Source of the DNA: Pseudomonadales bacterium
GTDB taxonomy: Bacteria > Pseudomonadota > Gammaproteobacteria > Pseudomonadales > UBA5518
Length of the DNA: 64,000 nt
Reading direction: 5' to 3'
Assembly: GCA_022072145.1 (NCBI GenBank)
Contig: JAJVIG010000019.1
Span: 1 to 64,000 of the forward strand
Part shown: piece by piece, positions 48,989 through 53,567 of the stretch
Layout: the number at the start of each line of letters is the position of its first letter
Position numbering within the stretch: position 1 is the first letter of the stretch
Notes under the pieces: model-generated
Told to the model about the DNA's origin: nothing
The model's input: only the letters and a program-made list of their open reading frames with translations
Databases searched by the model: none
Program-made: the position numbers and the translations under genes

Positions 48989-51574
48989 CTAGATCGCGTA
49001 GACCTTCACCCGCGCCGCGCACTCCGCCTGCAGCGTCGAAGGCCCCATGTAGCGCAGGCCGGAACCGAGCAGGCTGTTGAAGTGACCGGGGCCGCGACCG
49101 CGCCCCACGGCAGCGTCGGTGAGGTGTCCCCAGCAGCCGATGGTCCCGATCACCTCGGGGTGGATCGTCTGGGTGCACTTGAGGGTTCCTTCCATGCGCC
49201 CGTGCGGCGACTCCACGCAGACGCGCTGGCCATCGGCGAGATTCCGGCGTCGTGCGGTCGCCGCGTTGATCAGGATGTGCGCGAAATACGGGTCGCGTTC
49301 GGCGGCTTCGAGCAGCCACACGTTGGTGGCCGGCACCGTGCCCGAACCCACACCGCCCATCGCCGTGCGCCAGTTGATCGCGTAGAGGTCGAACTCGGCC
49401 GGTTCGTCCTCGAGCACACTGGAATGCCAGAACGGCAGCGGCGCGTATTCGAGGAACACGCGTTCGGGATCGAGCGCGGGGACCCGGGCGAGCACTTCGT
49501 GCGCGGTCATCTGCCGGCGCAGATCGTCGCCGACCTGCTTCAGCCAGTACGAGTAGAGCGGTACGCGGTGGCCGCCGAAGCAGTCCGGCACGTAGCGCTT
49601 GCATGCCGGCTTCGGCTGCAGGTTGTGCCCCTGCGTCCAGACGAGTTCCTGCTGCGTTCCCGCCACCGCGCGCACGTAGGTCTCGACGTATTCGCGCGCG
49701 CTGCGGTACGGATGCGTGATGTCGTTGACCGCGACCTGGCTGACCGCCTCGGAGGCGCCGCCGGTCATCTGCATCATGTTCAGGAACGAGCTGAATCCGA
49801 GCGGGCCGGTCATGATGCCGAGCCGGTGCGCGAGTTCGATGTAGACGTCGGCACTGTGACGTATGCCGTACAGCGGCTCGACCACCGGCTGCTGGATCTG
49901 GATTCCCTCGTCCTCGACCGACCACATGCCTTCCCAGCCCCAGCGCTCGAGGTAGCTCACGTCCGGCAGCACCAGGTCCGCGAACAGCGCCGTCTCGTCG
50001 ACGTACAGCGTGATGTCGACGAGGTACGGAATCGCCTTCAGCCCGGCGATCGCCGACGACGGATTCTGCCCGGTCATCACCGGGTTGCCGCCTTCGTTGA
50101 TCAGCATCTCGATCGGCGTGACCCCGTACCGCTCGGGTGCGGCCTGCGCCTCGAAGCACAGCAGTCCGGCATCGAACGCCACCGGGAAGTATTCGGGGAC
50201 CGCGATCATCTTCGGCGGGAACGCGAACGCGTGCGGCTGGAACGGCGTGAAGATCAGCCCGTCCGGCCCGGGCAGCGTGGTGGCCGGCGACTGCGGCATC
50301 ATCGACCCGATCCAGGCGCGCGCACCGCCGACCGCGCGCGTGGAGCCGATCAGCACGTTGATCAGCTCCATCGCCCACGAGGTGTGCAGCGCGTTGGTGT
50401 GCGTGCTCAGCCCGCGGTAGCCCGACACCGACGCCGGCCGGTACGGATAGGTCCTGCCGTCGATCTCGATCGTCTCGCCGATGCGTGCGGCCTGCCCCAG
50501 TTCGCGTGCCAGGCGCCGGATCGTCGCGGCCGCCACGCTGCTGATCGCCTCGGCCCATTCCGGCGTGTACTGCCGCAGATGGTCGAACAGCAGCTGGAAG
50601 CCCGGCTGGCCTTCCCCGGCCGGAGTCGTGTAGCGGCCGCGCAGCGCGAGCTGTGCCACGTCGAGCGCGGGATCGTCGAACGCGCGCGTGCACTGCGCTG
50701 CACCGTCCCAGACCAGCGGCTTGCCGCTCGCGGCATCGCGCAGCGGGTAGCCGTCGGCGCCGATCAGGTACGCGGCGTTCGTGTGCACGCGCAGGTAGCC
50801 CGCATCGTAGATGTCGAGTTCGTGCAGCAGCACGTGCATCATCGCGAGCAGCATCGCGCAGTCGGTGCCCGGGCGTATCGGCACCCATTCGTCGGCCATC
50901 GCGGCCGCGCGGCTCTGCTGCGGATCGACCACGACGAGGCGCAGTTTCCCGCGTTCGCGCGCATCGCCCAGGATGCGGCCGTAGGCCACCGCGCTCTGGT
51001 ACGCCTCGCCGATCGCCGCGCCGACGATCATCGCGTACTCGGCGTACTCCAGATCCGGATGCGTGTTCATCGAGTTGTGGATCATCTCGCCGGCCGTGTG
51101 CGCGCCGTTGCCGCACATATGGCCCATCGCGCTGAACAGGTTCTTCGCGCAGTTGGCGGTGCCGAACGCGAGCCCGAACGCGTTGCCCCAGTGCCACGAG
51201 TGCGTGTTGAAGCCGCCGACCGCGAGCAGGCTCGGGTCGCGTTCGCGGATCGAACGCAGCTTCTGCTCGAGGATGTCGAGCGCCTCGTCCCAGGAAATCT
51301 CCTCCCACCGCGGATCGACGTCCAGCCCCTTCTCGGGGTTGGTGCGACGCATCGGCACCTTGAGCCGCTTGGGATCGTAGAGCCGCATCGCGCCGCTGTT
51401 GCCCTTGGGGCACAGCCGTCCGCGCGTCGCCGGCGTGGCGGGATTGCCCTCGATCTTGAGCAGCACGCCGTCCTTCACGTGCGCGAGGATGGGGCAGCCG
51501 TGGTAGCACATGCTGCAGTGCGAGGGCACCCAGCGTTCGTTGCCCTCGGTGACGGCGGAAGCGGTTGCGGTCAT
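48989..51574 (-). CDS. molybdopterin oxidoreductase, catalytic subunit
   Basis: An 861-residue DMSO-reductase-superfamily enzyme. The N-terminal [4Fe-4S] motif is C20-x2-C23-x3-C27-x27-C55 (SHCSMCYHGCP and RLCPKGN). A probable molybdenum-ligand Cys lies in GHMCGNGAH (C154). The C-terminal molybdopterin domain includes ESPHGRMEGTLK. There is no twin-arginine signal: the protein runs from MTATASAVTEGNERWVP straight into the cluster, so it should stay in the cytoplasm. The partner genes upstream (Fe-S and DmsC-like) suggest a membrane-bound complex facing inwards, unlike DmsABC or PsrABC. The substrate is unknown; the family spans polysulfide, hydroxylation and hydration chemistry. Confidence 0.87.
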   Translation of the reverse strand: MTATASAVTEGNERWVPSHCSMCYHGCPILAHVKDGVLLKIEGNPATPATRGRLCPKGNSGAMRLYDPKRLKVPMRRTNPEKGLDVDPRWEEISWDEALDILEQKLRSIRERDPSLLAVGGFNTHSWHWGNAFGLAFGTANCAKNLFSAMGHMCGNGAHTAGEMIHNSMNTHPDLEYAEYAMIVGAAIGEAYQSAVAYGRILGDARERGKLRLVVVDPQQSRAAAMADEWVPIRPGTDCAMLLAMMHVLLHELDIYDAGYLRVHTNAAYLIGADGYPLRDAASGKPLVWDGAAQCTRAFDDPALDVAQLALRGRYTTPAGEGQPGFQLLFDHLRQYTPEWAEAISSVAAATIRRLARELGQAARIGETIEIDGRTYPYRPASVSGYRGLSTHTNALHTSWAMELINVLIGSTRAVGGARAWIGSMMPQSPATTLPGPDGLIFTPFQPHAFAFPPKMIAVPEYFPVAFDAGLLCFEAQAAPERYGVTPIEMLINEGGNPVMTGQNPSSAIAGLKAIPYLVDITLYVDETALFADLVLPDVSYLERWGWEGMWSVEDEGIQIQQPVVEPLYGIRHSADVYIELAHRLGIMTGPLGFSSFLNMMQMTGGASEAVSQVAVNDITHPYRSAREYVETYVRAVAGTQQELVWTQGHNLQPKPACKRYVPDCFGGHRVPLYSYWLKQVGDDLRRQMTAHEVLARVPALDPERVFLEYAPLPFWHSSVLEDEPAEFDLYAINWRTAMGGVGSGTVPATNVWLLEAAERDPYFAHILINAATARRRNLADGQRVCVESPHGRMEGTLKCTQTIHPEVIGTIGCWGHLTDAAVGRGRGPGHFNSLLGSGLRYMGPSTLQAECAARVKVYAI

Positions 51575-51606
51575 GGTGCGTGCGGGCCTCCGTTCAGCCT
51601 CGTTGG

Positions 51607-51939
51607 CTAGCCACCGACAATGGTCTTCACGCGGATCAGCAGCGCCTCGATGCGGCGCTCCGCGTCGAGACGATCGGCAAGATCCGCATCCAGATCGCCG
51701 ATCGGCTGATCGCCGACGAACAGATGCACGTTCGTGCGATGTGCTCCCGCGCTGCGCGCCGCGACGAGGAACGGCAGCGTCTGCTCGCCGAAACGCACGA
51801 GCATCGCCTCGATGATCCCCCGTCCGGTCAGCGCGTGCGCCGGCAGTTCGAGCGTCACGGCGGGCCGCGCGCCACCCGCCAGACCCAGATCGGGAAATCC
51901 GTGCAGCGCGACCCGCGCGACCACCGGCGCCTCGTCCAT
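51607..51939 (-). CDS. MoaD-like beta-grasp protein with C-terminal GG
   Basis: A 110-residue protein in the molybdoenzyme operon. The pattern follows MoaD/ThiS-type sulfur carriers: a first strand (VARVALHGFPDLGL), a second ending LELPAHAL, a helix (RGIIEAMLVRFG), a strand NVHLFVGDQ, and a tail LLIRVKTIVGG that ends exactly in Gly-Gly at the stop codon. MoaD and relatives are adenylated and thiocarboxylated at that GG. The ATG at 51939 is four bases after the DmsC-like stop; a start 24 bases upstream is possible. The assignment rests on pattern and length, not on a search. A role in maturing the adjacent molybdoenzyme cofactor is inference. Confidence 0.6.
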   Translation of the reverse strand: MDEAPVVARVALHGFPDLGLAGGARPAVTLELPAHALTGRGIIEAMLVRFGEQTLPFLVAARSAGAHRTNVHLFVGDQPIGDLDADLADRLDAERRIEALLIRVKTIVGG

Positions 51940-51943
51940 GCGC

Positions 51944-52846
51944 TCAGCTCCGCGCGCGCGCACGCGCCAAACCCGCCGCGAGCGATACGCTCTTCGGCCG
52001 GTAATGCCCGGCGCGCGTGAGCAAGGTCACCTTGAACGCCCAGCCCCCGAGCGCGGCGAGCACGCCGCCCGCGGCCACCGCCACGACGCCGGCGGTTCCA
52101 CCGAGCAGGACCCCGGCGAACGCCAGCAGCAGCGGCAGTCCGTCACCGGCGGGCAGCCAGCGCCGCGCGTGTGCGGCGAGCGCGGCGAGCGCGGCCGCCG
52201 GCGCATCGGCACGCACCAGAGCCGCGCGGTAACGCCGCCACGCAACGTGACGCAGCACCAGCGCGGCCACCAGCAGCACGATGCCGCCCGCCGTCGGAAC
52301 GTCCGGCACGAAAGCCGTGGTCGCCACCGCCAGACCGGCCCCCTCGGCCAGTCCGGTGACGACGATCAGCGGCACGATCTCGGCGATCGACCACGCCGGG
52401 ATCCCCTTGGCATCGTTGAGGATGCGTGCCTGGCAATACAGGAACACCAGCGCCGACAGGGTCGCGATCACGGCCATCGCGCCGATCGCCGGCTGCCACA
52501 GCGACAGTGCGCCGCAGCCGAACAGCGTCGGCATCGCGAAGCCCTCGCGGGTCATCCACGAGCCCTTCGCGTGGCGGAAGATGTTCAGCGCCCGCGCCGG
52601 GCGGCCCAGCTTCGCCATGATGCACAGCAGCCCGATGGCCACGATCGCCAGCCCCAGGCCCGCCTGCACGCGGTAGCTGGCGGTCGACGGCGCGAACAGC
52701 GTGGCCGCGAGCAGCATGCCCGCACCGGTGCCGCCGCCGACGAAGTTCGCCGCCGCGCGCCAGTCCCAGCGCGTGTATTGCCCCGGGGCAGCCGTCCATC
52801 CGGGCGTTACCGCGGTCGCGACCGCCTGCGTGGTGCTGCGTGTCAT
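51944..52846 (-). CDS. DmsC-like membrane anchor subunit
   Basis: A 300-residue protein with about eight membrane helices, matching the DmsC branch of anchor subunits. The block KLGRPARALNIFRHAKGSWM with MTREGF is the DmsC hallmark. It would exchange electrons with quinol and bind the Fe-S subunit. The gene lies 43 bases after the Fe-S subunit gene and four bases before the MoaD-like gene. No haem-binding pattern is evident. Confidence 0.85.
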   Translation of the reverse strand: MTRSTTQAVATAVTPGWTAAPGQYTRWDWRAAANFVGGGTGAGMLLAATLFAPSTASYRVQAGLGLAIVAIGLLCIMAKLGRPARALNIFRHAKGSWMTREGFAMPTLFGCGALSLWQPAIGAMAVIATLSALVFLYCQARILNDAKGIPAWSIAEIVPLIVVTGLAEGAGLAVATTAFVPDVPTAGGIVLLVAALVLRHVAWRRYRAALVRADAPAAALAALAAHARRWLPAGDGLPLLLAFAGVLLGGTAGVVAVAAGGVLAALGGWAFKVTLLTRAGHYRPKSVSLAAGLARARARS

Positions 52847-52889
52847 CGCCGCCCTCCCGTGTCTTCGACCCGGCCGGTGTTCGCCACGT

Positions 52890-53567
52890 TCATGTGTCCG
52901 CGTCCAGCATGACGTCCGCCGGCAGATAGAACACCGACGGTTTGGTGCCGGCCTCCGGCAGCAGAGGGAAACCGTTGCGCTCGCGGATCAAGCGGCTGAC
53001 GTGGCTGTCCGGATCGTCCAGGTCACCGAAGACCATCGCCTCCGACGGGCAGGTGTTCACGCACGCAGGCGTCACCTCGCGATCCACACCCGGCACCAGT
53101 GCGGTCCCCTTGGCGCGCGCTAGCCGATGCTCGCAGAAGGTGCACTTGACCACGGTGTCCTGCTTGGCGACCCAGTCGTGCCCGGCCTCGCCGCCGCGCG
53201 CCTCGTGCGGCGTCACGCAGTCGTCGAAGTGGCCGGCGGCGTAATCGACGTAGTGCCGGTGCTCGTAGGGGCAGGCCGTCATGCAGTAGCCACAGCCGAT
53301 ACACTGCCCGGAGTCGACCAGCACCAGCCCGTCGTCACGCTGGTACGTCGCGCGCGTCGGGCACACCGGAACGCAGGGCGGCTCGGCGCAGTGGTTGCAT
53401 TGCACCGGCGCGTGGATGCGCCGGGCCGTCGGGTATTCGCCGACCTCCTCGAACAGCATGCGCCGGAAGTGGATCCCGGACGGCGTGCTGTGTTCCTGTT
53501 TGCAGGCGATCACGCAGCCGTAACAGCCGGTGCAGCGCTGCAGGTCGATCGTCATGCCCCATCGCAC
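52890..53567 (-). CDS. four-cluster ferredoxin subunit (DmsB/PsrB type)
   Basis: A 225-residue electron-transfer protein with four [4Fe-4S] motifs intact: CTGCYGCVIACK, CNHCAEPPCVPVCP, CIGCGYCMTACP, and CTFCEHR paired with CVNTCP. The N-terminus RWGMTIDLQRCTGC is typical of DmsB/PsrB/NrfC proteins. I chose the GTG at 53567 because GGGAG precedes it; the ATG at 53555 would cut the RWGM start. It is the first gene of the operon and links the anchor to the catalytic subunit. Confidence 0.9.
   Translation of the reverse strand: MRWGMTIDLQRCTGCYGCVIACKQEHSTPSGIHFRRMLFEEVGEYPTARRIHAPVQCNHCAEPPCVPVCPTRATYQRDDGLVLVDSGQCIGCGYCMTACPYEHRHYVDYAAGHFDDCVTPHEARGGEAGHDWVAKQDTVVKCTFCEHRLARAKGTALVPGVDREVTPACVNTCPSEAMVFGDLDDPDSHVSRLIRERNGFPLLPEAGTKPSVFYLPADVMLDADT

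Follow-up and report, generated by a model that had tools for sequence, protein, structure and literature searches.

A four-gene operon in the window, the 64,000-nucleotide stretch of Pseudomonadales DNA analysed here, encodes a molybdopterin catalytic subunit of the PadB clade together with an FeS protein, a membrane anchor and a 110-residue MoaD-like protein. The pairing of such a catalytic gene with a MoaD-like gene recurs across phyla. We tentatively propose, with somewhat less than even confidence, that this is an inward-facing Mo/W enzyme with a dedicated MoaD-like sulfur carrier that matures or maintains its cofactor.

Organization of the operon

The gene set consists of four genes on the minus strand (Table 1). 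The preliminary description had given the order as FeS protein, anchor, 110-residue protein and catalytic subunit, and the ORFs, lengths and coordinates agree with this to the base. The intergenic spacers are 43, 4 and 32 bases in that order and an AGGAGG-like ribosome site precedes the catalytic gene, suggesting that the four genes are read as one operon. Codon-position GC is typical of coding DNA for the catalytic, anchor and FeS genes. The operon is flanked by a FadE gene upstream and an epoxide hydrolase gene downstream, and the flanks also contain epimerase and MFS genes. An Rfam search of the window gave no match.

Table 1. Genes of the operon, from the FeS protein to the catalytic subunit
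Feature	Coordinates	Strand	Basis
FeS electron-transfer subunit, PadC/PsrB-like, four [4Fe-4S] motifs, GTG start	52890..53567	-	motifs, domains, identity to PadC-position protein
DmsC/PadD-like membrane anchor, about 6-8 transmembrane segments	51944..52846	-	weak DmsC match, hydropathy, relatives
MoaD-like beta-grasp protein, 110 aa, C-terminus IVGG	51607..51939	-	profile, leave-one-out, AlphaFold model, structural matches
Tat-less Mo/W-bis-pterin catalytic subunit, PadB clade, 861 aa	48989..51574	-	domains, upstream frame, tree, motifs

Subunits of the predicted complex and their kinship to PadBCD

The catalytic subunit contains Molybdop_Fe4S4, Molybdopterin and Molydop_binding domains and an N-terminal [4Fe-4S] motif. 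In the PDB, the closest sequences are those of polysulfide/thiosulfate reductase (2vpw) and ArrA. It had been described as lacking a twin-arginine (Tat) signal; we found none in the protein or in the in-frame stretch upstream of its ATG, and an upstream start therefore restores none. All 33 clade rows of the catalytic subunit share the Cys of a CGxxxH motif; it is a likely metal ligand, compatible with a metal coordinated by Cys. In the window genome the Molybdopterin oxidoreductase family has 17 matches, an unusually large number, several of which lie in open frames roughly 950-1000 codons long.

Motif reading of the FeS protein gives four clusters with 16 Cys in all and one additional Cys, and its GTG start at 53567 aligns with the MRWGM/MKWGM starts of relatives. 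Hydropathy analysis of the anchor showed six clear hydrophobic segments. The match of the anchor to the DmsC model is below threshold (E 0.0037), and its PadD relative passes the DmsC cut-off; the anchor is 27-29% identical to the anchors of relatives. At one related locus (L024:10589-12028) the FeS protein and anchor are apparently fused in one 479-residue ORF, and a MoaD-like gene follows it. Taken together, the sequences best support a PadBCD-like complex that would be membrane-anchored and inward-facing.

PadB was identified solely by its pad gene cluster. Searching with padI returned nothing in the window's own order, and a second order gave three PadI-positive genomes. Two of these three had no PadB beside their padI-like genes, and their best PadB matches are only 31-32% identical. 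In the third, G896, the pad cluster goes on to encode a Tat-less catalytic subunit of 867 residues, an FeS protein, a DmsC-family anchor and an FdhD-family protein. The window catalytic subunit is 33% identical to the G896 catalytic subunit, and the FeS protein is 48% identical to the protein in the PadC position. In a 40-row tree the window, PadB, MoaD-linked and Coriobacteria rows formed one clade (support 99/100), within which the Tat-bearing rows were a single subclade (100/100). The branching of the window and PadB sequences within the clade, both of them long branches, is unsettled in this tree. The substrate of PadBCD is a CoA thioester (PMC5109826), which fits the inward orientation. 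The preliminary description had called the operon the best candidate for a new redox system; in that form this is not supported, as the catalytic, FeS and anchor subunits fall with this known enzyme.

At the G896 locus (L121:1742-6950) padB, padC and padD are followed directly by the FdhD-family sulfurtransferase gene. This adjoining gene suggests that the PadB cofactor is sulfurated.

The 110-residue protein belongs to the MoaD/ThiS/SAMP beta-grasp group

As a single query, the 110-residue protein retrieved nothing useful from Pfam, NCBIfam or the PDB. The single sequence gave only one doubtful match, containing stops, in 96 related genomes. Since single-sequence searches were unproductive, a family profile was needed. 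We gathered relatives by scanning public genomes with the catalytic subunit and found that in these genomes the catalytic gene is adjoined by a short ORF whose product ends in GG or AG. A profile built from these operon-linked proteins (profile A1) matched the Pyrococcus MoaD structure in the PDB (E 2.6e-6); its weaker matches were 2m19, MoaD-related, MoaD2 and SAMP1 chains. A leave-one-out profile recovered the window protein at E 8.9e-5 among 20,001 sequences (best shuffle 0.087). The AlphaFold2 model has beta-grasp topology (pLDDT 79) and its Foldseek matches are ubiquitin-like; on structural realignment the top matches were SAMP1 (Z 9.9), mycobacterial MoaD2 (9.7), 2m19 and Pyrococcus MoaD (9.1). 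Thus, profile A1, the leave-one-out test and the predicted structure all bear out the earlier reading of the protein as MoaD-like, and the predicted fold is a beta-grasp nearest to SAMP1 and MoaD. Against canonical MoaD proteins of the same genomes the profile match was moderate (E 6.3e-5, probability 65%). The PF02597 (MoaD/ThiS) model matched all seven of these canonical proteins, matched 4 of 16 relatives weakly and did not match the window protein.

The tail of the window protein is KTIVGG. Among 24 homologues, 15 end in GG, five in AG and four in GG followed by a short tail, so the terminal Gly is kept except where residues follow GG, and the Gly-Gly ending noted earlier is conserved to this extent. 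Most operon-linked proteins end in EGG, NEAG or similar. A PP[VM]xGG tail is present in 7/7 canonical MoaD proteins of the same genomes and missing from most operon-linked proteins, including that of the window. The mostly missing tail suggests that the partner of the operon-linked proteins may differ from MoaE. Two Nitrospinota operon-linked proteins retain a PP..GG tail, which would still be compatible with a MoaE partner.

Residues (A, K or a longer tail) follow Gly-Gly at L033:7650-7955, L016:1201-1505, L111:4791-5192 and L113:3746-4165, and such proteins would need trimming to be carriers. Several marine MoaD-like proteins (L013:7498-7950, L014:7469-7897, L017:7514-7933 and similar) have an N-terminal extension with a conserved DxSAxxWY motif.

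Conservation of the gene pair

A MoaD-like gene lies beside the catalytic gene in 22 of 24 Tat-less tree rows, usually directly upstream of it, compared with 0/9 Tat-bearing Coriobacteria relatives and 1/48 rows outside the clade, where the tail is of canonical type. Given this distribution, the adjacency cannot be attributed to chance. Before removal of near-duplicates the pairing was present in 23 of 34 clade rows, and the 11 rows without it were the nine Tat-bearing Coriobacteria, PadB and L012. At least five phyla have the pairing (Pseudomonadota, Tectomicrobia, Nitrospinota, Chloroflexota and Myxococcota), with records from Rhodospirillaceae, Burkholderiaceae, Tectomicrobia, Nitrospinota, Limnocylindrales (Chloroflexota) and Myxococcota. 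The four-gene set itself is conserved, with a gene order at L110 identical to that of the window (FeS, anchor, MoaD-like, catalytic). L110 and L111 were missed by the adjacency filter and were added by reading the sequence. Two automatic flags were dropped: a Tat signal on L023, which has no hydrophobic stretch, and a MoaD-like protein at L054, which has a PPFAGG tail and lies beside a Tat-bearing distant enzyme. A plasmid search gave one distant match.

One Rhodospirillaceae genome (G757) carries five MoaD-like/catalytic pairs. In a Tectomicrobia MAG (L011:7280-13439) the pair is tandemly duplicated. Neighbours in marine Rhodospirillaceae include HpaB, LigB, amidohydrolase, Rieske, UbiD and enoyl-CoA hydratase genes, and L114 has a gene resembling TPP-dependent acetolactate synthase/benzoylformate decarboxylase. 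These lineage-varying neighbours point to aromatic or acyl-CoA catabolism in general, with no specific substrate indicated.

Cofactor genes

The window genome has a canonical moaD followed by moaE, away from the operon, and a single MoaE and a single ThiF/MoeB-family gene. No FdhD was found in this genome, which is 93.6% complete. Exactly one MoaE was present in every genome in which MoaE was detected. The PadB operon of G896 has FdhD, of the cofactor sulfurtransferase family, in place of a MoaD-like gene. FdhD is present in most other genomes with the pairing, and because it lies elsewhere in most genomes a strict swap between FdhD and the MoaD-like gene is not supported.

Discussion

In the model that we tentatively favour, this PadB-clade enzyme would be an oxidoreductase with a Mo or W bis-pterin cofactor, linked to quinone and facing the cytoplasm. 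It would probably oxidise a substrate from the cytoplasm, for which a CoA thioester and an aromatic acid are possibilities, with water as the oxygen source, and its electrons would reach the quinone pool by way of the four-cluster FeS protein and then the membrane anchor. The Gly-Gly of the MoaD-like protein could be activated to a thiocarboxylate by the cell's E1-type enzyme, the single MoeB/ThiF-type gene product, and its sulfur would then go into maturing or maintaining the cofactor of this enzyme alone. The recipient might be the sulfido ligand of the metal or a dithiolene specific to the enzyme. We regard as doubtful the narrower version in which the carrier acts directly on a DMSO-reductase-family enzyme and installs or renews the metal sulfido ligand in the cytoplasm, which is FdhD's job, instead of making molybdopterin (MPT) with MoaE. 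Some observations speak against a carrier role. Cytoplasmic maturation is shared by the Tat-bearing relatives even though they have no MoaD-like gene, which indicates that bis-pterin insertion does not generally require this gene; these relatives are one lineage, so the contrast between Tat signal and MoaD-like gene amounts to a single event. The presence of FdhD in most other genomes with the pairing, the five AG tails and the four proteins with residues after GG also count against the role.

The MoaD-like protein could instead be a second small subunit of molybdopterin synthase. It would bind the housekeeping MoaE and increase or retune the supply of dithiolene during production of the enzyme, as has been suggested for MoaD genes adjoining tungsten aldehyde oxidoreductase genes. 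This would agree with the beta-grasp fold and terminal GG, with the lone MoaE of each MoaE-positive genome, which is free to pair, with the Nitrospinota members that have a PP..GG tail, and with the precedent of MoaD genes linked to aldehyde oxidoreductase (AOR) genes (PMC1779556, PMC6365974). We consider it unlikely, given the loss of the tail common to 7/7 canonical MoaD proteins from most members including the window's, the absence of a Pfam ThiS match for the window protein when 7/7 canonical proteins have one, and the absence of a MoaE gene accompanying the 110-residue gene. It is rather improbable that, instead of carrying sulfur, the protein serves as a chaperone, a structural subunit or a ubiquitin-like modifier that is bound or conjugated to the catalytic subunit: the terminal Gly is almost always retained and no E2 or JAMM conjugation/deconjugation gene was recognised in the window operon, even though the top structural match is the archaeal modifier SAMP1, the operon contains no TorD/DmsD-type chaperone gene, AG tails or residues after GG relax the requirement for a thiocarboxylate, and several marine members share the N-terminal DxSAxxWY extension.

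We think it very improbable that the operon encodes a plain phenylacetyl-CoA:acceptor oxidoreductase (PadBCD) in which the small gene is incidental. The shared clade and the identities of the catalytic and FeS subunits to the G896 pad cluster favour this, but the small gene recurs across phyla and is thus not incidental, and no PadEFGHI-like or phenylacetate-CoA ligase genes were found in the examined flanks of the window operon. Furthermore, G002, a congener of the window genome, encodes a protein with an N-terminus that is nearly that of G896 PadB, with no MoaD-like gene upstream, which makes the window operon a paralogous system and not PadBCD itself.

If the dedicated-carrier model is correct, the module would tie cofactor maturation to the membrane side that the enzyme faces. 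A recurrent module of a PadB-type, predicted inward-facing molybdoenzyme with its own MoaD-like protein, found in at least five phyla, makes it testable whether a MoaD/ThiS-type carrier can serve one enzyme's cofactor directly. The Tat-bearing sister group from gut Coriobacteria, which has no MoaD-like gene, offers a natural comparison.

Comparison with known systems

A dedicated MoaD-like carrier in such an operon had been called unusual. MoaD genes beside Mo/W enzyme genes are already known for AOR: they adjoin AOR genes, often with a separate Moco operon in the genome, and have been proposed to serve tungsten cofactor synthesis (PMC1779556), and the Aromatoleum proteins AorD and AorE resemble MoaD and are not in the purified enzyme (PMC6365974). 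For PadB-type enzymes, a literature search limited to non-subscription papers returned no report of a MoaD-like gene of this kind. Like the AOR-linked genes, the window gene lies beside a single Mo/W enzyme gene and apart from the main moaD. By contrast, AOR belongs to an unrelated enzyme family, and the AOR-linked MoaD at L112 keeps PPVAGG, which most PadB-clade-linked proteins do not have. At this locus (L112:4177-6512) a tungsten-type aldehyde oxidoreductase-like gene is accompanied by its own MoaD ending in PPVAGGNRAT, and the same Nitrospinota genome has PadB-clade pairs.

With PadBCD of Thauera and Aromatoleum the window complex shares a Tat-less catalytic subunit, an FeS protein, a DmsC-like anchor, membership of one clade and the conserved metal-site Cys. 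It differs in gene order, in having no PadEFGHI nearby and in a catalytic identity of only 33%, and the G896 pad operon has FdhD and no MoaD-like gene. PsrABC/PhsABC and DmsABC have the same plan of catalytic subunit, FeS protein and anchor, and 2vpw is the best PDB sequence match; unlike them, the window catalytic subunit has no Tat signal, which predicts an inward orientation, and the operon has the additional MoaD-like gene. The window protein differs from MoaD proper in having neither an adjacent MoaE partner gene nor a PPVxGG-type tail. It shares its fold and C-terminal Gly with SAMP1, MoaD and Urm1, and is set apart from them by a highly diverged sequence and by its operon linkage to one enzyme.
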